Assembly: GCA_024690485.1 (NCBI GenBank)
Contig: JAILPB010000099.1
Span: forward strand, 1 to 39,476
Direction: 5' to 3'
Length of the DNA stretch: 39,476 nt
Source: Butyrivibrio sp.
GTDB taxonomy: Bacteria > Bacillota > Clostridia > Lachnospirales > Lachnospiraceae
Shown: in pieces, positions 5,517-16,592 of the stretch
Position numbering within the stretch: position 1 is the stretch's first letter
Layout: the number at the start of each line of letters is the position of its first letter
Made by a program: the position numbers and the translations under genes
The notes under the pieces: model-generated
The model's database searches: none
The model's input: the letters and a program-made list of their open reading frames with translations, nothing else
What the model was told of the DNA's origin: nothing

Positions 5517-8500
5517 ATGAAGTCAAAGGCCAAAAAAAGGGAAATGATCATAAGGCACATCATTTTAATTCTGGCTATGCTCTGGTGTACAACCCTTACG
5601 ATCAAGAACAATGGACATATCGACACGAATAAAGAGCTGAACACAATAGAATACGTGGCAGCTTATTTATTCAAGTTTTCTCCTATGCTCATTTTCGCTG
5701 CCCTTGAAGGCGTTGTTCCATGCATCTTTAGTTGCTTCATTTTATTTGCGGCAAAAACTGTTGTTTATAGGGAGCTGGCATTTACTTCCGCGATATATTT
5801 TGTTGGCGGCGCCATGGCTCATTTCTTTAGCATGTCAGGCATGTTTAATAAAAAGAGAAAAGCCCTGGCTGTAATGACGTTTTATATGTTCCTCTACGGA
5901 AGTGTCTGGGGTGGAATCCTTGGAATTCTGTCAGGACGAGGCTTTTATGAGTTTATGCCACACAGGACCATATTCTATTTCCTTAATGAGCTTCCTGAGG
6001 CATTTATAAGTGTTGCGGTTGTTTATATCATATTCGGAGTGGCACCAAATAAAGTTCGCGCACTTTTCTTTAGCGGCGTTTATTACAGATCTGATATTGA
6101 TGAGATAACAAGGAAAGTTGCGGACGTTAGAAAATCAAAGATTGGAATGGCTCTGGCGCTGGTTATTTCCATACAGGCGATAGCCCTTGGTATTGCAGCG
6201 GCAATATATGCCAATACACTTATTCCTACTATGGATGCGCCCTATATCTACAGGCAGGAGTATGACACTGATGAAATGAGCGCAGAAATAGATTGGGAAC
6301 ATACCACCAATATTGTTTCTTTGGAGCATCAGTTCAGTATCATCGAGATCGAGAATGCTAGCAAAGAGGGCAGAAAACTTGGGCTTACTTTGAATAATGC
6401 TACTCTTATATTTGATACTAAGCTCATAATGCTGATACTTATCGTAATCATACCTATGAGTGTCATAGCAAACCAGTATGCCCAGTTCAGAATAGCCAGG
6501 CCCATAATGAGGCTCTCAGACAGCATACAATCCTTCTATGACCTTGGTGCGTCGGGACTCGATGAAAACCTTGAGAACTTAAAAAACCTGAATATAAATA
6601 CTAACGATGAAATTGAATACATGTACAGCACCTTCCAGAAGACCGCTGAGACCATGGTCAGCTACATTAAGATGATCCAGGCCCAGCGAACTCTTGCGGA
6701 TGAACTTAGAACCCAGCAGATGGCCAATGAAGCCAAGAACAATTTCCTGTCCAGTATGTCTCATGAAATCAGGACTCCTATAAATGCTATGCTTGGCTTT
6801 AATGAGATGATTCTCCGTGAGAGCAAGGATCCTGAAATAACCAAGTATGCTACAAATGTAAATGCTTCAGGAAAACTCCTTCTTGGACTAGTCAATGATG
6901 TACTTGACTTCTCCAGGATTGAAGCCGGTAAAACAGAGATAATCCCTGTTGAATATGACCTTAGTTCCATGATAAATGACCTTATAAATACTGCTCACAT
7001 GAGGATGAAGGGCAAAAATCTGGAGCTTAAGACAGATATATCCACAGAGATTCCCTGCATACTTCTTGGAGATGAAATCAGAATAAAGCAGTGCGCAATA
7101 AACCTTATTACCAATGCCATCAAGTACACTAATGAGGGAAGCGTCACCATATCTATCGATCACAAGAAGCTGGATGAAGAAAACATATCCATGCGCATAA
7201 GAGTTAAGGACACCGGTATCGGCATAAGAAAAGAGGATATGGAAAAACTCTTTGCTCCCTTTGAAAGAATCGAGGAGAGCAGAAACAGAACCATCGAGGG
7301 TACCGGCCTTGGAATGAATATTGTAAAGCAGCTCCTTAATCTTATGGATTCAAAGCTTCTTGTCAGCAGTGAGTACGGAAAGGGAAGTGAATTCTCCTTT
7401 AGCATTAAGCAGAAGGTAGTTAACTGGAATCCTATTGGTGACTTTGCTGCAACCTATGAAGAGACACTTCTTGGACAAGATACTTACCATGAGAGCTTCC
7501 ACGCACCTGAAGCAAGGATTCTTGTGGTGGATGATACACTTGCCAATCTAACAGTAATACAGGGACTTTTGAAGCAGACACAGGTCCAGGTAGATGTGGC
7601 TGAGAGCGGATTTGAGGCACTTAACCTCGTCTGCGAGAACAAGTATGACATCATTTTCCTTGATCACAGAATGCCCAAGATGGACGGCATAGAGACCCTC
7701 AGGGCAATGAAGGATCTTGATGAAAACCTTAATAAAAACGTACCGGTCTTTGCCCTTACTGCAAATGTAATTAGCGGAGCAAGGGAGATGTACTTAAAGG
7801 AAGGATTTTCAGGTTATCTTCCAAAACCTGTGGATTCAGCAAAGCTGGAGGATGCAATACTTAAGAGTCTTCCTGATTACAAGGTAATAAGACCTGAGGA
7901 TAAGGATTTTGTTCCGGTAATTGAAGCAGAGGAAATATCTGCAAAGGATCTTAACGCCATAAGTATCATGTCTAATATTGAGGGTATAGATTTTGAAGCA
8001 GGTATTAAGAACTGTGGAGGACCAATTGCCTTTATGGACGTAGCCAAGGATTTTGCATATGCTATAGAAGCCAAGGCAAAATCCATCGAGGATGCATGGC
8101 AGTTTAGAGATTTTGAGAACTACACCACCTATGTACACGGACTTAAGAGCTCGGCAAGAGTCCTTGGTGCAATGGAGCTTTCAAACCTTGCGGCTTACCT
8201 TGAGCAGTGCGGAAACAGCAAAGATGCCCATGAGATAGAACGCAGAACTCCGGAACTTTTATCCATGTACAGGGCATATTCAGATTACCTCAGTCCTCTT
8301 ATTGACAAAGACCTTACTGAGGAAGAGGATATGAGCAAACCGCTCATCGAACCGGAGGAACTTAAGGGCGCTTTAAAGAGTCTTAGAGAGTTTGTTGAAG
8401 GGTCTTACTTTGACAGCGCCGACGATGTGGTCAATATGATGGATGACTATCGGATGCCGGATGATTTTAAGGATACCTATAAAGAAATAAAAAGATTGTT

Positions 8501-8540
8501 ATCGGCAGTTGACAGAGACGGGTTGTTAAAGATATTGTAA
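5517..8540 (+). CDS. Hybrid sensor histidine kinase 1 (membrane, HisKA-HATPase-REC-Hpt)
   Basis: 1007 residues with ATG behind GAGGGGA. An N-terminal membrane region (about 12-235, six or so helices), a predicted extracytoplasmic stretch (about 237-303) and a last helix (about 304-325) lead into a HAMP-like linker. HisKA carries MSHEIRTPINAML with phospho-acceptor H416. The ATPase domain shows N-box NLITNAIKYTNEG, G1 DTGIGI and G2 EGTGLGM. The receiver starts ILVVDDTLAN and has phospho-acceptor D716 in FLDHRMPKMDG with a conserved Lys in YLPKPV. A C-terminal Hpt domain has YVHGLKSSARVLGA with intact H874. It therefore holds a full His-Asp-His relay and is the only kinase of the three here with a usable Hpt histidine. 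The likely next acceptor is the tandem-receiver protein encoded 27 bases downstream. The signal sensed is unknown. Confidence 0.9.
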   Translation: MKSKAKKREMIIRHIILILAMLWCTTLTIKNNGHIDTNKELNTIEYVAAYLFKFSPMLIFAALEGVVPCIFSCFILFAAKTVVYRELAFTSAIYFVGGAMAHFFSMSGMFNKKRKALAVMTFYMFLYGSVWGGILGILSGRGFYEFMPHRTIFYFLNELPEAFISVAVVYIIFGVAPNKVRALFFSGVYYRSDIDEITRKVADVRKSKIGMALALVISIQAIALGIAAAIYANTLIPTMDAPYIYRQEYDTDEMSAEIDWEHTTNIVSLEHQFSIIEIENASKEGRKLGLTLNNATLIFDTKLIMLILIVIIPMSVIANQYAQFRIARPIMRLSDSIQSFYDLGASGLDENLENLKNLNINTNDEIEYMYSTFQKTAETMVSYIKMIQAQRTLADELRTQQMANEAKNNFLSSMSHEIRTPINAMLGFNEMILRESKDPEITKYATNVNASGKLLLGLVNDVLDFSRIEAGKTEIIPVEYDLSSMINDLINTAHMRMKGKNLELKTDISTEIPCILLGDEIRIKQCAINLITNAIKYTNEGSVTISIDHKKLDEENISMRIRVKDTGIGIRKEDMEKLFAPFERIEESRNRTIEGTGLGMNIVKQLLNLMDSKLLVSSEYGKGSEFSFSIKQKVVNWNPIGDFAATYEETLLGQDTYHESFHAPEARILVVDDTLANLTVIQGLLKQTQVQVDVAESGFEALNLVCENKYDIIFLDHRMPKMDGIETLRAMKDLDENLNKNVPVFALTANVISGAREMYLKEGFSGYLPKPVDSAKLEDAILKSLPDYKVIRPEDKDFVPVIEAEEISAKDLNAISIMSNIEGIDFEAGIKNCGGPIAFMDVAKDFAYAIEAKAKSIEDAWQFRDFENYTTYVHGLKSSARVLGAMELSNLAAYLEQCGNSKDAHEIERRTPELLSMYRAYSDYLSPLIDKDLTEEEDMSKPLIEPEELKGALKSLREFVEGSYFDSADDVVNMMDDYRMPDDFKDTYKEIKRLLSAVDRDGLLKIL

Positions 8541-8567
8541 ATCTATGTGCGAAGAGAGGGGAACCAC

Positions 8568-9332
8568 ATGCAGAGAAAAGTATTGCTTATCGGAGCTACA
8601 AAGAGCTTTATGATCAATGCTATCGCAGTTGGATTGGAGAAAGGTAAGTACGATGTGATCCGTTGCGATTTATCCAAGGAAGCTATTATGGCCATCGAGG
8701 ATAAACCCGAGCTGTATGTTCTTTATCTTGGAGATTTAAATGAGGAAAGTGTAAAACATCTCAAATATCTGGATGAAGCCATAGATTCCGAGCATTTTTA
8801 TCTGTATGAAGTAGGAAATACCGAGGAGCTGGACTATGCTTCCAATTTCCTGTCTCCCATAAAGGTAACCGAGACTTACCTAAGGCCGCTGGATGTGACA
8901 GAGCTTGTAGAGGCTCTTGACCTGGCTGTTGCAAGCGGTAATATGGATGAGGAGCAGAAAAAGAAGATCCTGGTTGTGGACGATGACGGAACCATGCTCA
9001 GGATGATCAAAACCTGGCTTTCTGTAAGATACAGGGTTTATATGGCAAGCTCCGGTAAGATAGCTTTGAATTTCCTTGCCGGAAATGATGTGGATCTGGT
9101 TCTTTTGGACTACATGATGCCTCAGATGGACGGGCCGGAGGTACTTAAAAATATAAGAGCGGATGAAAAAACCGCGAATCTGCCGGTAATGTTTTTGACG
9201 TCCAAGAGCGATAAAGAAAGTGTTATAAATGTTGCTTCCTTGAAGCCTGAAAAGTATCTGCTTAAGACCATGCCAAAGGCGAAGCTTGTTTCGGCGATAG
9301 ATACATTTTTCTATGGCTATCAGGATTCATAG
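8568..9332 (+). CDS. Tandem receiver protein (pseudo-REC plus REC), no output domain
   Basis: 254 residues. ATG at 8568 is chosen over upstream GTG 8547 because AGAGGGGA lies just before it. The N-terminal half (about 1-120, RKVLLIGATKSFMINAIAVG) has receiver-like alternation but lacks the acidic pocket and the phospho-Asp: YVLYLGDLN stands where LxxLDxxMP is expected. The C-terminal half is a canonical receiver: KILVVDDDGTMLRM, LVLLDYMMPQMDGPEVL with the phospho-acceptor Asp, MFLTSKSD, and KYLLKTMPK with the conserved Lys. There is no DNA-binding or enzymatic domain, so it works by protein contact or as a phosphate shuttle or sink, like Spo0F or CheY. Position directly after the Hpt-bearing kinase suggests that kinase as donor. 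Confidence 0.85.
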   Translation: MQRKVLLIGATKSFMINAIAVGLEKGKYDVIRCDLSKEAIMAIEDKPELYVLYLGDLNEESVKHLKYLDEAIDSEHFYLYEVGNTEELDYASNFLSPIKVTETYLRPLDVTELVEALDLAVASGNMDEEQKKKILVVDDDGTMLRMIKTWLSVRYRVYMASSGKIALNFLAGNDVDLVLLDYMMPQMDGPEVLKNIRADEKTANLPVMFLTSKSDKESVINVASLKPEKYLLKTMPKAKLVSAIDTFFYGYQDS

Positions 9333-9362
9333 TAAATAAATACAGGGAGGATGAAAAGTTAC

Positions 9363-10289
9363 ATGATTCAGAGACTGGTAGAGGGGATAAAAAAGACAGA
9401 AGCACCTATCGTGGTAGGGCTTGATCCTAAGACAGATTTTATCCCGAAGAGAATCCTAGACAATAATCTTGCAAAGTATGGGGAGAGCGCAGAGGCAGTT
9501 GCAGAGAGCTTCTTTGAGTTCAACAAGGAAATAGTTGATAACATATATGACCTTGTGCCCGCTGTAAAGCCTCAGGTTGCAATGTACGAGCAGTACGGTA
9601 TTCCCGGACTTATTGCTTACAAGAAGACAATCGATTATTGCAGAGAAAAGGGACTTCTTGTAATCGCAGATGTAAAAAGAGGTGACATAGGTTCAACATC
9701 AGAATCCTATGCTCTTGCTCATCTTGGAGCATCTAAGGTTGGTAATACTCTTGTAAAGGGCTTTGATGCTGATTTTGCAACAGTTAATCCCTATCTTGGA
9801 TCAGACGGAGTAAAGCCCTTTGTTTCAGTTTGTAACGAGTTTGATAAGGGTATATTTGTCCTTGTAAAAACATCTAATCCCAGCAGCGGAGAGCTTCAGG
9901 ATAAGATAACTGACGAGAAGCCCTTATATGAGCTGGTGGGAAGCCTGGTTGAGAAATGGGGCGCAGAGTCAATGGACGGCGCTTACAGTAATATCGGTGC
10001 CGTAGTTGGTGCTACATATCCTGAGATGGGCAAGGTACTCCGCGATATCATGCCCCACGCATTTATCCTTGTTCCGGGATACGGCGCTCAGGGCGGCAAG
10101 GGAGCAGACCTTGTTAACTTCTTTGACAAGGACGGTCTTGGTGCTATTGTAAATTCATCAAGAGGAATTATTGCCGCATGGAAGAATGAAAAATACGCAG
10201 ATCCTTCCAGGGAACTTTTGGGAGAAGCTGCGAGAAAAGCAGTTCTTGATATGAAGGAAGACATCAAGGGTGCACTTTTAAACAGATAA
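9363..10289 (+). CDS. pyrF: Orotidine 5'-phosphate decarboxylase (type 2)
   Basis: 308 residues; converts OMP to UMP, the last step of de novo UMP synthesis. GGGAGG at 9345-9350 abuts the ATG at 9351, leaving no spacing, so the ATG at 9363 (MIQRLVEGIKK, the usual family start) is more likely. The long bacterial subfamily is shown by IVVGLDPK, VKPQVAMYEQYG, and the catalytic ADVKRGDIGST with its Lys and Asp residues, followed by a phosphate-binding region near LVPGYGAQGG and VNSSRGI. It lies 30 bases from both neighbours: a tandem receiver gene upstream and pyrE downstream. The other pyr genes are not in this window. Placement inside a signalling gene string is unusual. Confidence 0.95.
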   Translation: MIQRLVEGIKKTEAPIVVGLDPKTDFIPKRILDNNLAKYGESAEAVAESFFEFNKEIVDNIYDLVPAVKPQVAMYEQYGIPGLIAYKKTIDYCREKGLLVIADVKRGDIGSTSESYALAHLGASKVGNTLVKGFDADFATVNPYLGSDGVKPFVSVCNEFDKGIFVLVKTSNPSSGELQDKITDEKPLYELVGSLVEKWGAESMDGAYSNIGAVVGATYPEMGKVLRDIMPHAFILVPGYGAQGGKGADLVNFFDKDGLGAIVNSSRGIIAAWKNEKYADPSRELLGEAARKAVLDMKEDIKGALLNR

Positions 10290-10319: not shown

Positions 10320-11012
10320 ATGGAAAGGTATAAGGAAGATTTTATTGACTTTATGGTGGACAGCAACGTCCTTAAATTTGGCGAGTTTACATTAAAGAGC
10401 GGAAGAAAATCTCCGTTTTTTATGAACGCAGGAGCATATGTAACGGGCTCTCAGCTTAAAAAACTTGGTGAGTACTATGCAAGAGCTATTCATGATACAT
10501 TCGGACTTGAGTTTGATGTGTTATTCGGACCTGCGTATAAGGGTATTCCCCTTACAGTTATCACAGCAATAGCAATCAGCGAGCTCTATGGCAGAGAGGT
10601 TCGTTATTGTTCCAACCGTAAGGAAATAAAGGACCACGGCGATAAGGGCATCCTTCTTGGATCAAAGCTCAGAGATGGGGACAGAGTAATGATCATCGAG
10701 GATGTTACAACCTCAGGAAAATCCATTGAGGAGACAGTGCCGATCATCAGAGAACAGGCTGATGTTGATATTGTCGGACTTATGGTATCCCTTAACCGTC
10801 AGGAAAAGGGACAGGATTCTGATGCCAGCGCTCTTGATGAGATCAGGGATCGCTACGGATTTGAAGCAAAAGCTATTGTAACCATGCAGGAAGTTGTTGA
10901 ACACCTGTATAACGTGCCTGTTGATGGAGAAGTTATCCTCGGAAAAGACATCAAGAAGGCTATTGATGAGTATTATAAGGAGTATGGCGCAGCAGGAGTT
11001 GCGAAGAACTAA
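10320..11012 (+). CDS. pyrE: Orotate phosphoribosyltransferase
   Basis: 230 residues; joins orotate to PRPP to give OMP, the substrate of PyrF encoded just upstream. AGGAG (10305-10309) lies 10 bases before the ATG. The N-terminal FGEFTLKSGRKSPFFMNAG is the orotate-side signature; GPAYKGIPL is the loop preceding the catalytic region; RVMIIEDVTTSGKSI is the PRPP-binding motif with its paired acidic residues. The conserved flexible-loop segment NRKEIKDHGDKG is present. Length fits the 210-230 residue family range. It is followed after only 9 bases by a small membrane protein gene, so translation may be coupled. Confidence 0.95.
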   Translation: MERYKEDFIDFMVDSNVLKFGEFTLKSGRKSPFFMNAGAYVTGSQLKKLGEYYARAIHDTFGLEFDVLFGPAYKGIPLTVITAIAISELYGREVRYCSNRKEIKDHGDKGILLGSKLRDGDRVMIIEDVTTSGKSIEETVPIIREQADVDIVGLMVSLNRQEKGQDSDASALDEIRDRYGFEAKAIVTMQEVVEHLYNVPVDGEVILGKDIKKAIDEYYKEYGAAGVAKN

Positions 11013-11021
11013 GATAGGTCT

Positions 11022-11381
11022 ATGGAGGAGCAGAGAAAAAAGCGCAAATTTAAAATAAAGCTATTTAAGCGTAGGAGGGAGCGCTATGTTTTTACTGATA
11101 AGAAGCATCCGGAAAAGGGCATAATGTCCTTTGTCCTCGGTGTTATATCAGTATGTACCATAGCTCTGGCTGTTTATTTTTCCTATAGGAACGGAGGGCA
11201 GGCTCTCGCCCGCTACGCTATGGCGGTGCTGTTTTGCTTGTTCTATTCACTTGCCGGACTGATACTTGGAATAATATCCAGATTCGAGAGAGATATTTTC
11301 AAGCTCTTCCCGAATCTGGGAATAGCATTAAATGCACTGTCACTGATAGCGATAGGGATATTGTTGTATCTGGCTTTTTAG
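11022..11381 (+). CDS. Small basic membrane protein (DUF6142-like)
   Basis: 119 residues. The first 27 are strongly basic (MEEQRKKRKFKIKLFKRRRE), then come three hydrophobic helices (about 35-55, 64-86, 95-118) with the charged joint ISRFERDIFKLFPN between the second and third. It resembles small uncharacterised Clostridial membrane proteins I know as DUF6142; that assignment is from memory. The ribosome site is poor, and the 9-base gap from pyrE suggests coupling. A 12-base gap links it to hybrid kinase 2, so it might be an accessory membrane partner of that kinase. No function can be assigned. Confidence 0.7.
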   Translation: MEEQRKKRKFKIKLFKRRRERYVFTDKKHPEKGIMSFVLGVISVCTIALAVYFSYRNGGQALARYAMAVLFCLFYSLAGLILGIISRFERDIFKLFPNLGIALNALSLIAIGILLYLAF

Positions 11382-11393
11382 TGAGGTGCTGAT

Positions 11394-13880
11394 ATGGAAC
11401 GAGGCAAGCGTGACGAAGAATTACGTAGAAGTATTCAGGTTGTAATACTTATGTGTTACACCTTGTATTCAGTTGGGCTTGCCATTGGAGCCATATATAA
11501 AGGCTGGGAATTGTGGGTTGTTCCGATTCTGCTAGTAGGAGTCGGAGTAAGCTGGAGTGTCTATGTAAATCAGAAATTTGATGCCAAATTTTCTGTTTAT
11601 TTCTATGCGGGTTTCATTACCCTTACCAATTTCTACTATGGAATTCACGTGGAAGCTTTCTACAGCGTTTCACTTGTTATAGTCCTTGCACTTCTTTTGT
11701 TCTGTCTTACGGAAGAAAAGGAAGTCTTAAGGATAATCGTTCTGACCTTTTTCCTTTTGATTGTTTATCATATCGTAATGATAGTTTTTAACTATGAAAA
11801 TGCAGAAGACTTTTCGGTTGGTCACAGTGCTTTGCATGTCATGGTAGTTCTTGTGGCTTACAAGGTTGCAGGATACGTCTGTGAACTCTTATCAGAAGGT
11901 AGAAAAACAGCGGAAGGATTAGAGCACGCCCTGCAGATAATGAGAGAAAAATCCGAGGACTTCATGGCCAACGTATCCCATGAACTCAGAACTCCCATTA
12001 ACGTTGTAACAGGCCTTTCATCACTTCTGTTAAAGGATGAAAAAAGCGATCAGAAAAAAGCAGATCTGACGGCTATTCAGGGTGCGGGTAGGAGACTCTT
12101 TGGAAGAATTGAAGATATTCTTGATTATACCGAGGTTGATACTGACAGCCTTGTTTTATCTGAGGATGACTATCGTATATCCTCCATCATCAATGACATT
12201 GTAACTGAATACAGAATGGAAATTCGTCCAAATGACCCTGAGTTTATAGTGGATATGGGCGTAACCCTTCCTGCAAGAATGCTTGGCGATGCAGCCAGAA
12301 TAAAGAGAATCATAAGACATCTCGTGGTTAATGCAAGGAAATTTACAAGTTCTAACGGATGTATATATATGAGCGTTTTTGCAAGGCGCAAGGAGTACGG
12401 AACAAACCTGTGTATAGAAGTGTCAGACACAGGTATAGGAATGTCCACTGAAGAACTTGATAAGGTCATAAAGGGAATATATCAGTCTGATTCCGGAAGA
12501 AGCAGAAAGGCTGACGGAATAGGTCTTGGACTATATATTGTCTTTGGATTTGTTCGCAAGATGGGCGGATTTGTGCACATAGAAAGTGAGAAAAACAAAG
12601 GTACAAAGGTTTCCGTCAGCATACCTCAAAAGGTTATAGATGATAAGCCGAGTGTTGTTCTTGATAATCCTGAAAAGCTTGAACTTGTATGCTTTTTAAA
12701 GCCGGATAAATACAAGTCACCTGCAGTCAGAGAGTATTACAACACAATGATCATAGAGATGTTAAGAGGACTAAATGTTCCTATTCACAAGGTCACTGAT
12801 TTTGAAGAACTGCGCACCATTTGCCAGGGTACACAGATAACTCATGTATTTATTGCAGAGGAGGAGTATAAGGCTGACGCAAATTATTACGAGACATTAA
12901 AAAATGATATTTCGGTAGTGGCAGCAGTTTCTCCGGGATTTAGGATACCCAAAAATTCCAAGGTTACTTTCGTAAGAAAGCCTGTATTTAGCCACTCTCT
13001 TGTAAATGCTGTAAACAGAAAGATGTCTGTCTGGGAGTTCGATCCTGAGACCAGTGGAAAGAAGCTTGCCTTTAACGGTGTAAAGGCTCTTGTTGTTGAT
13101 GATGAAGAGATGAACCTTATTGTTGCGAAGGGTGTCCTTGCCGGCTACGGAATGGACGTATCTGTTGTCCTTAGCGGTCTTGAAGCTGTCAAGATGTGCG
13201 AGAAGCAGCGCTTTGACGTTGTCTTCATGGATCACATGATGCCTGAAATGGACGGTGTCGAAGCCATGAAGCTAATAAGAAGAAATAATGGTAATGATGA
13301 TCACACAGCTATCATAGCCTTCACCGCAAATGCAGTCAGCGGCGTAAGAGAAATGTTTATTAAGGAAGGTTTTGATGAGTTCATAGCAAAGCCTATAGAA
13401 GTATCGGAGCTTGAGAGAATCCTTAAAAAACTCCTTCCCTCCACCATGTGGCAGTATGTGGAAGCAGAAGATAAGGACGAAGATGACTATGGTTCTTCCG
13501 ATGAATATGACGAGGATGAGCTCACTTCGAAATTTGAACTCCTCAACGCCCAGGAAGGCAGAAAGCTTTGCAGAGGAAGTGGAGCAATGTATGAGGAAAT
13601 GCTTATGGAGTTTGTGAGGGCATCTGATGATATTATGGACGAACTTCAGGAATATTATGAGAACAAAGACTGGAAGAACTATCGAATAAAGATAAACGGA
13701 CTTAAGTGCTCAGCTAAGATAATCGGCGCAGATGAGCTTTCAAAAGAAGCACAGGAAATCGAGAGAGCTGCCGTTGGAAGCTGGGAAGCTTATATTGTTG
13801 CCAATCATGGAGATCTGTACAGAAAAGTTGATGACATTAAAGATGAGATAGAAAGAGTTTTGGGAGGTAATGCCTCATGA
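11394..13880 (+). CDS. Hybrid sensor histidine kinase 2 with pseudo-REC, REC and inactive Hpt
   Basis: 828 residues, ATG behind GAGGTG. About six membrane helices (about 15-165) lead to HisKA with NVSHELRTPINVV and H196. The ATPase domain has VVNARKFT, DTGIGM and DGIGLGLYIV. Residues about 425-555 look like a degenerate receiver: THVFIAEEEY replaces the phospho-Asp strand. A true receiver follows (ALVVDDEEMN; FMDHMMPEMDG with D613; FIAKPIE). The C-terminus folds like Hpt, but the histidine of the motif HGLKxSA is Asn (INGLKCSAKIIGA, N768). Hpt phosphotransfer is therefore not expected, and D613 needs another acceptor or acts allosterically. The stop overlaps the start of the next kinase by 4 bases (ATGA), indicating translational coupling. 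Confidence 0.9.
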   Translation: MERGKRDEELRRSIQVVILMCYTLYSVGLAIGAIYKGWELWVVPILLVGVGVSWSVYVNQKFDAKFSVYFYAGFITLTNFYYGIHVEAFYSVSLVIVLALLLFCLTEEKEVLRIIVLTFFLLIVYHIVMIVFNYENAEDFSVGHSALHVMVVLVAYKVAGYVCELLSEGRKTAEGLEHALQIMREKSEDFMANVSHELRTPINVVTGLSSLLLKDEKSDQKKADLTAIQGAGRRLFGRIEDILDYTEVDTDSLVLSEDDYRISSIINDIVTEYRMEIRPNDPEFIVDMGVTLPARMLGDAARIKRIIRHLVVNARKFTSSNGCIYMSVFARRKEYGTNLCIEVSDTGIGMSTEELDKVIKGIYQSDSGRSRKADGIGLGLYIVFGFVRKMGGFVHIESEKNKGTKVSVSIPQKVIDDKPSVVLDNPEKLELVCFLKPDKYKSPAVREYYNTMIIEMLRGLNVPIHKVTDFEELRTICQGTQITHVFIAEEEYKADANYYETLKNDISVVAAVSPGFRIPKNSKVTFVRKPVFSHSLVNAVNRKMSVWEFDPETSGKKLAFNGVKALVVDDEEMNLIVAKGVLAGYGMDVSVVLSGLEAVKMCEKQRFDVVFMDHMMPEMDGVEAMKLIRRNNGNDDHTAIIAFTANAVSGVREMFIKEGFDEFIAKPIEVSELERILKKLLPSTMWQYVEAEDKDEDDYGSSDEYDEDELTSKFELLNAQEGRKLCRGSGAMYEEMLMEFVRASDDIMDELQEYYENKDWKNYRIKINGLKCSAKIIGADELSKEAQEIERAAVGSWEAYIVANHGDLYRKVDDIKDEIERVLGGNAS

Positions 13881-16546
13881 TTATAGAAAAAATTCTTTCC
13901 AGGGTAGATGATCACTCAAGAAGCATGCAGGAGAGACTGTTTTCGTTCTTTCCTCACATAGGACTTTGTACACTGCTTGTGGTAATCATAGTGGCTATCA
14001 TAGTTAAGGACGACATCCTTAACATTATAGCCATGTCAGTATGCTTTGTTGTTTTTCTGACGATAACACTGGTATCCTCCAAAGCCAGGAAGATAAGGGT
14101 GGGCACCACGCTTATAGCTCTGTTGCTGGTTCTGGTGCTTCTTCCCTTTGCGTTCATTTTTGGCGGAAGTATCTATGGCGGATCTCCTGCATGGTATGTT
14201 TTTGGATTTGCTTATATAGGAATTACTGTCGAGGGAAAAAGGAAATATGTGCTTATGGCATTAGCTGTTGCATCTGCAGCGGTGGCATATTATATAGCTT
14301 ACACATATCCTGAGCTTGTGGCACATCACTCAGAAAAAGCTGCATACTTCGACTCTTTTTCAAGCATCATCCTGGTAAGTATTCTTATAGTTGCCATGGT
14401 TTTGTTTGAAAATAAGATTTACATACATGAGAATAGCCTTATCGAAAAGCAGAGGAAAGAAATCGAGGATCTGAGCGAAGTAAGAAACAAGTTCTTCTCG
14501 AATATGAGCCATGAGATAAGAACCCCTATAGATTCTATTATCGGTTTTAACGAGCTGACTTTAAGAGAAGATATTTCCGAAGAAGTCCTTGAGAATTCTC
14601 AGAATATCAGAAGTGCCAGCAAACTTTTACTATCCCTTATAAATGATGTTCTTGACTTATCAAAGCTTGAGGCAGGAATGATGGAAATCGTTCCTGTGGA
14701 CTACGATTCAGTAGGACTTTTGTCAGAGACCATCAATCTTGTGTGGGAAAATGCCACGAGAAAAGGACTTGCCTTCTACGTTGAGGTTGATCCTGATATT
14801 CCCACAAGACTTCTTGGGGATGATACCAGAATAGAGCAGATTCTTATCAATATTTTGGAGAATGCCATAAAGTACACAAATGAAGGAAGTGTCAGCTTAT
14901 CTGTGACCTGTAACCGTGTAGCAGACAGACAGGCTGAGATGATCTATACGGTGGAAGATACAGGTATTGGTATTAAGAGAGATAATCTTCCTTTCATTTT
15001 TGATGAATATAAGCGGATAGATATGGCAAACAGCAAAGAAATAATCGGAACCGGACTTGGACTTACCATCGCCAAACAGCTGGTTGATCAGATGAACGGT
15101 GAGATACTGGTTAATAGCGTTTATACTAAGGGATCAACCTTTGTTGTTAAGATTCCGCAGGAGATCATGGTTGAGAAGCCTGTAGGTAATCTTAGTCTTG
15201 ATGAAATAAGGAAGCGGGAGGAAAAACAGTTTTATCGCCAGAGCTTTGAGGCACCTTCTGCAAGGCTTCTTATAGTTGACGACAACCAGATGAACAGAGT
15301 GGTTACCGCTAAGCTTCTTAGGGACACCAAGATGATAATCGATACGGAGAGCAGTGGACCTCTGTGCCTTGAGAGATGCGCGAATACCCACTATGATGCT
15401 ATTTTCCTTGATCAGGAAATGCCTGAAATGGATGGAATAGAGTGTCTTAGACTTATAAGATCCCAGATTGGTGGTATGTGCAGAGAGACTCCTGTAGTAG
15501 TTATGACTGCCCATTCTTCTGCTGAGGATCAGGCAAAATTCAGGATGGCAGGTTTTGACGGATACCTGCTTAAACCTCTTAACGGCGAGATGCTGGAAAA
15601 TACGCTTCTTCGAATTTTGCCCGCTGAACTTGTCCACAGGACAAGCCCCACATATATCGATCCCAGTGAACAAAGGCGAGGCAGAAAGGATAAGGTACCG
15701 ATACTTATTACTTCAGAGAGTGTATGCGACCTTCCAAAGGAAGTTTTGGATAAGATACGTATACCACTCATTCACTATTATATTAAGAATAAAAACGGCG
15801 TGTTCCTTGATGGAATAGAGGCAGAGACTGACGGAGTATTGGAGTACATGGAAGAAGGAGATGGAATGGACCTTAGGGTTGAAACGCCTACTCCTGATGA
15901 TTATGAAGACTTCTTTGCCATGCATCTGTCAGATGCCACAAATATTATCCACATCGCCATGTCCTCTAAAGCTGGAGATGCCTACAAAAATGCGGTTATA
16001 GGAGCATCTGCCTTCGATAACGTTACGGTAATAGATTCAGAGCATGTATCAAGCGGAATAGGACTTCTTGTAATGGAAGCCGAGCAGATAGCTGAATCCG
16101 GAAAGGATCTTGAGAGCTGCATTAAAGCAATAAATAAGGCCAAGAAGAAAATTCATACAAGCTTCCTTATAAATGACACCAATTATCTGGTAAGACTTGG
16201 AAGAGTAAGCCCGAAATTCCGAGGAATCAGCCGGATATTTATGATAAGACCTTCGATTATCTTCAAGGAGGGTGTCGGCCGACTGGATAAGATTTTGTAT
16301 GGACCAACTGATGGAACAAGGGTAAGGTATATCCAGATGCAGCTTGATAAGGGCCAGAACATTGATAAGAGCGTCTTGTTTATCACTCACTCCAGCCTGT
16401 CTCCGTATGAACTTGATGATGTAAGGAGATATGTGGGCAATAACATGCTCTTTGATAAGATATATATTCAGAAAGAATCAGCAGCCATGGCTGCAATCCA
16501 TGGAAAAGGAGCCTTTGGACTTTTATATAAGATAAAAGAAGAGTGA
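13877..16546 (+). CDS. Hybrid histidine kinase 3 fused to a DegV/FakB-type fatty-acid-binding domain
   Basis: 889 residues, ATG overlapping the previous stop, GGGAGG just upstream. About six membrane helices occupy 25-190. HisKA has MSHEIRTPIDSII with H212; the ATPase domain has NILENAIKYTNEG, DTGIGI and IGTGLGL. A receiver (LLIVDDNQMNRV; FLDQEMPEMDG, D512; YLLKPL) is followed directly by about 280 residues of DegV type starting at V607: ITSESVCDLP, HIAMSSKAGDAYKNA, VTVIDSEHVSSGIGLLVMEA (V718 onward), LVRLGRVSP, IRPSIIFKEGVGRL. DegV/FakB proteins bind a fatty acid and present it to FakA kinase. Here the usual ITxDS Asp is Glu, and the TSxPS loop reads VETPTP, so ligand contacts may differ. 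No Hpt domain. The frame is continuous across the junction, so fusion is genuine unless the assembly is wrong. Confidence 0.88.
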   Translation: MIIEKILSRVDDHSRSMQERLFSFFPHIGLCTLLVVIIVAIIVKDDILNIIAMSVCFVVFLTITLVSSKARKIRVGTTLIALLLVLVLLPFAFIFGGSIYGGSPAWYVFGFAYIGITVEGKRKYVLMALAVASAAVAYYIAYTYPELVAHHSEKAAYFDSFSSIILVSILIVAMVLFENKIYIHENSLIEKQRKEIEDLSEVRNKFFSNMSHEIRTPIDSIIGFNELTLREDISEEVLENSQNIRSASKLLLSLINDVLDLSKLEAGMMEIVPVDYDSVGLLSETINLVWENATRKGLAFYVEVDPDIPTRLLGDDTRIEQILINILENAIKYTNEGSVSLSVTCNRVADRQAEMIYTVEDTGIGIKRDNLPFIFDEYKRIDMANSKEIIGTGLGLTIAKQLVDQMNGEILVNSVYTKGSTFVVKIPQEIMVEKPVGNLSLDEIRKREEKQFYRQSFEAPSARLLIVDDNQMNRVVTAKLLRDTKMIIDTESSGPLCLERCANTHYDAIFLDQEMPEMDGIECLRLIRSQIGGMCRETPVVVMTAHSSAEDQAKFRMAGFDGYLLKPLNGEMLENTLLRILPAELVHRTSPTYIDPSEQRRGRKDKVPILITSESVCDLPKEVLDKIRIPLIHYYIKNKNGVFLDGIEAETDGVLEYMEEGDGMDLRVETPTPDDYEDFFAMHLSDATNIIHIAMSSKAGDAYKNAVIGASAFDNVTVIDSEHVSSGIGLLVMEAEQIAESGKDLESCIKAINKAKKKIHTSFLINDTNYLVRLGRVSPKFRGISRIFMIRPSIIFKEGVGRLDKILYGPTDGTRVRYIQMQLDKGQNIDKSVLFITHSSLSPYELDDVRRYVGNNMLFDKIYIQKESAAMAAIHGKGAFGLLYKIKEE

Positions 16547-16560
16547 TAAAAACGGTGTTT

Positions 16561-16592
16561 TGCCGCCTCCTATAAAAAGGGAGGCGGTTTTG
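16561..16592 (+). terminator. Rho-independent terminator ending the signalling block
   Basis: CCGCCTCC (16563-16570) pairs with GGAGGCGG (16580-16587) around a 9-base AT-rich loop and is followed by TTTT. It begins 16 bases after the stop of kinase 3 and is the first clear terminator seen after the small gene at 5285. Confidence 0.85.

Follow-up and report, generated by a model that had tools for sequence, protein, structure and literature searches.

A DegV-bearing hybrid histidine kinase and its partner kinase in Butyrivibrio and other Lachnospiraceae, a candidate lipid-responsive signalling system

The fatty-acid-binding proteins FakB1 and FakB2 of S. aureus, the hybrid kinases BarA, TorS and ArcB, and the SaeRS system of S. 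aureus are the closest described counterparts of the locus reported here. In FakB2, Thr61, Ser93 and His266 reportedly hold the fatty-acid carboxylate (work of Broussard and others in 2016), and we take these to be the positions that line or hold this group. BarA, TorS and ArcB have the domain order HisKA-HATPase-REC-Hpt. According to the available text of PMC5539427, fatty acids inhibit the SaeRS kinase system, so that a lipid acting on a histidine kinase system has a precedent. The free fatty-acid pool is linked there to a histidine kinase as well, but that kinase carries no DegV domain, the link runs via pool size and the architecture is different. For FakB1, the available text of PMC9136124 describes Arg173 as required for FakA phosphorylation, without contact to the fatty-acid carboxyl group.

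The DegV domain studied here shares with FakB1 and FakB2 the fold, a full-length profile match and a GGR-type motif with its arginine. Unlike them, it is fused to a membrane hybrid kinase and is not encoded next to fakA. The position of FakB2 His266 is Asn in most fusions and Ile in our copy, whose branch has also lost the T61 and S93 equivalents. With BarA, TorS and ArcB, the fusions have in common the kinase core and the receiver, and long relatives also possess a C-terminal Hpt domain. In contrast to those kinases, the fusions have DegV inserted after REC and ahead of the Hpt, or in place of the Hpt, and a second kinase, whose gene lies upstream, can carry the Hpt of the module. Searches of the open-licence PubMed Central literature listed no description of a kinase-DegV fusion or of its function, in line with the original prediction, which knew of no experimentally described one. 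Both halves are known. For their combination, as for the partner kinase and the shifting Hpt, the searched literature appears to hold no description.

The fusion gene and its relatives

The window is the whole analysed stretch of 39,476 nucleotides from a Butyrivibrio sp. (contig JAILPB010000099.1). It comes from a metagenome-type assembly of 2.26 Mb that is 72.9% complete. All features with coordinates in the window given below are on the forward strand. Translation shows that positions 13877-16546 form a single uninterrupted frame of 889 aa. A multi-pass membrane region is indicated by hydropathy at residues ~20-185 (13934-14431). It is followed by Pfam matches to HisKA (residues 203-267, 14483-14677, with H212 at 14510-14512), HATPase_c (residues 314-429, 14816-15163), a Response_reg receiver (residues 465-575, 15269-15601, with D512 at 15410-15412) and DegV (residues 609-884, 15701-16528, also defined by the fold model). 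The protein retains H212, N325, N329, D361, D468, D469, D512, T544 and K566, all invariant in an alignment of 14 sequences. Judged by these residues, it qualifies as a hybrid histidine kinase with a phospho-His HisKA, an N-/G-box ATPase and a phospho-Asp receiver. The Pfam scan detected no Hpt domain in it, so that it is not a tripartite kinase of the BarA/TorS type.

The match to Pfam DegV (PF02645) scores 118.6 bits (cut-off 27, E 4.3e-34) and covers positions 2-277 of the 280 of the profile. NCBIfam TIGR00762 is matched with 127.4 bits (cut-off 99.7). An AlphaFold2 model of residues 605-889, built from an alignment of 17 sequences, has a mean pLDDT of 87.7 and a pTM of 0.87. When this model was searched against the PDB, ranks 1-45 of the best 50 matches were DegV, FakB or fatty-acid-binding entries (best E 6.2e-23, query-normalised TM 0.73-0.86); the C-terminal domain of FakA and DhaK came after rank 45. 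The model supports a genuine DegV/FakB fold, joined to the receiver in one frame. The original prediction of one frame joining membrane region, HisKA, ATPase, receiver (with D512, as found here) and a full DegV domain (placed at 607-886) is borne out by both Pfam and the frame itself. It had named a stop or frameshift near 15690 among the findings that would refute it. This is very unlikely because 11 orthologues, from other assemblies, share the same open fusion, and for this reason a frameshift or a chimera as the origin of the fusion was rejected.

Among the 12 orthologues, the window's copy included, the DegV domain is under purifying selection (median pN 0.27 and pS 0.73, the latter near saturation). 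Its mean pairwise identity is 0.63, compared with 0.66 for the kinase core. Because it is conserved in this way, the fusion is selected, and a free-riding domain was rejected on the same ground.

Fusions are frequent in the family. By hand tally, at least 48 of the 79 genomes of the genus have a DegV domain within an open frame exceeding 470 aa. The orthologue group of the window's gene is found in 11 of the other 78 (DegV identity 51-64%). In a family draw of 397 genomes, the fused-DegV profile has matches with an E of at most 1e-60 in 82, and in 69 of these the match lies inside a frame of more than 500 aa (hand tally). The survey for HisKA-REC-DegV architectures suggested earlier thus has a positive outcome in both the genus and the family. 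Fused frames outside the family were found in a class-wide draw (391 genomes) in just three genomes, all of one genus of another family, and no extra-family frame longer than 397 aa was seen in a phylum-wide draw (398 genomes). Ruminococcus sp. YE71 is among the relatives, with a protein of 888 aa. A single-domain search for named relatives gave 17 loci, and only when an alignment served as the query. In a quick DegV tree, a branch with full SH-aLRT support splits 56 fused rows from 12 free-standing ones and FakB2. This agrees with a single origin of the fusions, short of proof.

Unless the 30 Butyrivibrio genomes are named, the counts of pocket residues, Hpt domains and pairing given below refer to 57 HK-DegV genes in loci that we chose; twelve rows with DegV in frames of at least 400 aa (L120-L129, L149 and L047 at 2813) were dropped as duplicates. 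A fusion is called long if it has more than 90 aa beyond DegV. Long proteins measure ~1030-1240 aa. The definition also takes in L161 (3808-8544, reverse strand), a relative of 1578 aa in which DegV is N-terminal (residues 3-281) and the kinase part comes after it. Of the 16 long members a single one, probably L161, has a dCache domain. At L059 (5456-7003, forward strand), a protein of 516 aa consists of a hydrophobic N-terminus and DegV, without a Pfam match to HK or REC, and adjoins a partner kinase gene. In a phage collection, 11 of 50,697 records, MT839922.1 among them, have a DegV-like reading frame (<60% identity). Among five listed matches the best identity is 28.4% and none is annotated.

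The partner kinase, the gene cluster and the Hpt domain

The gene at 11394-13880 overlaps the HK-DegV gene by 4 nt. It encodes a hybrid kinase of 828 aa with a membrane region (hydropathy) and, by Pfam, HisKA, HATPase, REC (D613) and Hpt domains. In this Hpt, Asn768 occupies the position of the phospho-histidine. Between HATPase and REC, residues ~416-560 are conserved without a Pfam match and may be a degenerate receiver.

A kinase of this partner type lies upstream of HK-DegV, on the same strand, wherever the contig reaches, mostly with a 4-nt overlap. Pairing was counted in 30 hand-picked Butyrivibrio genomes after removal of free-standing DegV rows (frames <320 aa). There, a partner gene precedes 54 of 56 HK-DegV genes at a distance of up to 7 kb and in the same orientation, and the two unpaired ones (G056:C65 and G045:C47) are both at contig ends. 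Conversely, the same genomes contain 57 partner N-termini. Three of them lack HK-DegV, two near contig ends; the third, a 533 aa frame on G066:C45, is a real orphan, away from the left contig edge. Both genes occur in 24 of the 30 genomes and neither in 6. As the genomes were picked as 24 with and 6 without fusions, this co-occurrence describes a biased sample.

In the set of 57 HK-DegV genes, 52 have a same-strand upstream frame of at least 600 aa. Two of these frames are themselves tandem HK-DegV genes and were left out, and the partner alignment used 35 of the 37 partners of short fusions. The five genes without such a frame are at contig ends (L046, L059, L157 and L158) or preceded by short frames up to the contig end (L152). 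At L159 (10750-16139, reverse strand), a tandem pair of HK-DegV genes stands behind a single hybrid kinase. The two-kinase unit is widespread in Butyrivibrio and other Lachnospiraceae, and a conserved kinase pair with one DegV domain is the part of our interpretation that we hold with high confidence. The original prediction had the fusion right but noticed neither the second kinase nor the exchange of the Hpt, nor how widely the fusion is distributed.

The placement of the Hpt follows the length of the fusion. At a Pfam E of 0.01 or better, it is present on 16/16 long HK-DegV proteins and on 0/15 of their partners; for short HK-DegV proteins the counts are 0/41 and 30/35. In the 30 Butyrivibrio genomes, partners are shorter than 800 aa for all 34 long fusions and measure at least 800 aa for 19 of 20 short ones; a Fisher test on partner length treats related genes as independent and was not used as a probability.

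The phospho-histidine of the partner Hpt is kept in 17 of the 35 aligned partners and lost in 17, one row having no Hpt there. It is lost throughout the window's branch (12/12; Asn 6, Glu 4, Ser 2). Nevertheless, an intact Hpt histidine is found nearby in 9 of these 12 loci as fetched, on a hybrid kinase HisKA-HATPase-REC-Hpt encoded in the window at 5517-8540 (His874; Pfam and alignment) or on its orthologue. Loss is also complete, with Arg, in the five loci L143-L147 (genomes G059, G048, G056, G037 and G057), whose module lies ~8 kb from fakA-recG-degV. The row there is REC-Hpt, partner, HK-DegV and a receiver protein of 251-263 aa, and the separate REC-Hpt gene, with intact histidine, is directly upstream in 5/5 loci. 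Each module thus seems to retain a single working Hpt, whether on HK-DegV, on the partner or on a nearby protein. We consider this the main new point of the comparison. A functional coupling between loss of the pocket (see below) and loss of the Hpt histidine was rejected because independent pairs gave no significance; it is kept as a lead only. On the tree, pocket loss takes six changes and histidine loss two, and the co-loss rests on two clades.

Upstream of the partner gene, the 5517 kinase gene is followed by a gene for a 261 aa protein with a receiver at its C-terminus (8547-9332, Pfam), by pyrF (9351-10289) and pyrE (10320-11012), both assigned by NCBIfam and lying within the signalling cluster, and by a gene for a 119 aa DUF6142 protein (11022-11381, Pfam). 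Directly 3' of HK-DegV and before purE, a consensus scan alone indicates a terminator-like hairpin (16562-16588; 10 pairs, 7 of them G-C), which probably sets the pur genes apart as a unit of their own. All 11 of 11 orthologous loci show the order pyrE, DUF6142, partner kinase, HK-DegV, purE, purM, purN, purD. pyrF is present in 10 of the 11, on the opposite strand in two (L044 and L045). In the stretches as fetched, the 8547 receiver gene has an orthologue in 9/11 loci and the 5517 kinase one with intact Hpt histidine in 8/11. Genes similar to the 8547 gene follow several other HK-DegV genes. In 6/11 loci (L036, L037 and L042-L045), a REC protein of 245-283 aa is encoded between HK-DegV and purE; it is absent from the window and from the 5 other loci. 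By eye, this REC protein ends in an Hpt-like part that lacks the histidine. Ten neighbours of modules were typed (MCP, carB, EF-G, DUF3160, GGDEF, Na-Ala symporter, EAL, FeoB, REC-Hpt and RecG). No lipid-metabolism gene recurs among them, and the idea of recurrent target genes beside the module was rejected for lack of a common theme.

The DegV pocket and its relation to fakA

Pocket positions were numbered by aligning the FakB2 chain (4x9x) to the DegV domains. In the window's copy, the equivalents of T61, S93 and H266 are V668 (15878-15880), G700 (15974-15976) and I874 (16496-16498), and none of the polar carboxylate-site residues is retained. In the 12 sequences of its branch, position 61 is Ala 7, Val 3 or Pro 2. 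Position 93 is Gly 9, Ser 2 or Ala 1, the serine being lost in 10/12. Position 266 is Ile 12/12, with His in 12/12 at the next position. This histidine, H875 (16499-16501), and R776 (16202-16204) are invariant in all 12. From its GGR motif, R776 is probably the equivalent of FakB1 Arg173, and the copy thus keeps the arginine.

Fusions outside this branch mostly keep the polar site. The 16 long ones have Ser 15 or Thr 1 at position 61, Ser 16 at position 93 and Asn 13 or Ser 3 at position 266, with the arginine in 6. The 29 other short ones have Ser 18 or Thr 4, Ser 17, and Asn 21 or His 2, with the arginine in 21. The full polar set (Ser/Thr, Ser, Asn/His/Ser) is retained in 32/45 and absent in 13/45. 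Free-standing near relatives show T 12, S 12, H 11 and R 13 in 13 rows, which remained from 31 loci after a frame filter removed 18 and include the visibly misaligned L099. As the long fusions keep the polar site and have the arginine in just 6/16, they look selected for binding and not for cooperation with FakA. In the window's branch the pattern is the opposite, the carboxylate site being gone and the arginine kept.

Since the polar residues are mostly kept in the wider fused family, a lipid role is plausible there. For the window's own copy, where all three carboxylate-site positions are changed, the fatty-acid binding put forward in the original prediction is doubtful. This copy more likely has a changed ligand or acts allosterically with no ligand at all.

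FakA is encoded in 73/79 genomes of the genus (E <1e-80, hand tally). In the source genome (G000), fakA is on another contig, C91, adjoining a free-standing DegV gene, one of three in this genome besides the fusion. In an alignment reading, all four key residues of this DegV protein are intact, so that the ordinary FakB role is probably filled elsewhere than by the fusion. No fakA gene was found in the neighbourhood of the HK-DegV gene in the window, a check that the original prediction had proposed, and delivery of fatty acid from the fused DegV to FakA is not indicated. A fakA neighbourhood as a general rule was rejected, the module being near fakA in one five-genome branch only (L143-L147), and those five genomes also have a free-standing DegV gene next to fakA.

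A possible lipid-regulated two-kinase relay

Our preferred explanation is that the family functions as a lipid-regulated two-kinase relay, to which we give a probability of about one half; complex, ligand and direction of control are the conjectural parts. It builds on the observed architecture, pairing, Hpt distribution, residue changes and conservation. The two membrane kinases (11394-13880 and 13877-16546) would be made together from their overlapping genes and would probably act as one complex or one short relay. The kinase histidines would hand phosphate to the receivers, which would pass it to a single Hpt; HK-DegV, its partner or a protein encoded nearby may provide this Hpt. DegV comes after the receiver and, in long fusions, ahead of the Hpt, and its ligand may thus alter the communication between receiver and Hpt. 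For the family, this ligand would most likely be a fatty acid or another lipid from the nearby membrane, and the role of DegV would be to regulate rather than to supply FakA. The rewired pocket mouth of the window's branch may accept another anionic lipid-like ligand, or DegV may have become a ligand-free allosteric part. Several observations weigh against the relay as explained here: the altered carboxylate site of the window's branch, the incomplete polar set in 13/45 other fusions, the non-significant co-loss of pocket and Hpt histidine, the orphan partner on G066:C45, the reduced module at L059 and the absence of a recurrent lipid-metabolism gene among the ten typed neighbours.

The DegV domain might instead be a ligand-free structural or docking shell, a FakB-like protein-protein interface serving to join the two kinases or to place the Hpt. 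The near-obligate pairing with the partner would suit such a role, and so would the loss of pocket-mouth residues on a conserved fold (12/12 in the window's branch, 13/45 elsewhere) and the retention of DegV without HK and REC (L059, 516 aa) or at the N-terminus (L161). However, a pure scaffold has no need of the polar carboxylate-type site, including Ser93, that 32/45 other fusions keep, nor does it account for the invariance of Arg776 and His875 in the 12 orthologues; we consider it rather unlikely, if the most serious competitor. The reverse direction of control, in which phosphorylation of the receiver sets fatty-acid uptake or release by DegV as a regulated FakB feeding FakA, appears improbable. 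It draws on the FakB1 Arg173 equivalent (12/12 in the window's branch, 21/29 in other short fusions), on the frequency of FakA in the genus (73/79) and on the L143-L147 modules ~8 kb from fakA-recG-degV. Yet the long fusions have the arginine in 6/16 and Asn 13 or Ser 3 at His266, fakA is not beside the other modules examined, the genomes with fakA near have their own free-standing DegV, and the carboxylate site is changed in the window's copy. A chance fusion kept in one lineage is hardly credible. The three free-standing DegV genes of the same genome speak for it, but fusions in 69/397 family genomes, several paralogues per genome, purifying selection on DegV and one fully supported branch in the DegV tree all argue against it.

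Within the lipid-regulated relay, a bolder reading concerns the window's branch. Acyl-phosphate is a mixed anhydride, like acetyl phosphate. The DegV domain of this branch might hold acyl-phosphate, which would phosphorylate the neighbouring receiver or report its level to it. Such a ligand would agree with the missing carboxylate-site residues and with the strict retention of R776 and of the new neighbouring His875; the counterpart of R776 in FakB1 is proposed to neutralise acyl-phosphate. We regard this reading as a long shot. If true, phospholipid synthesis would be wired straight into a phosphorelay.

For Firmicutes, little is established about the sensing of free fatty acids or acyl-phosphates and its connection to two-component systems. 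A kinase that carries a FakB-type domain in its own chain brings this question within direct reach, since the ligand could be read from the purified protein and its effect measured by phosphotransfer. The single Hpt moving between paired kinases is also an unusual natural experiment in phosphorelay architecture. The HK-DegV family is common in rumen and gut Lachnospiraceae, bacteria that live with dietary lipids, and the fusion with its near-constant second kinase points to an undescribed lipid-responsive signalling system in these bacteria.
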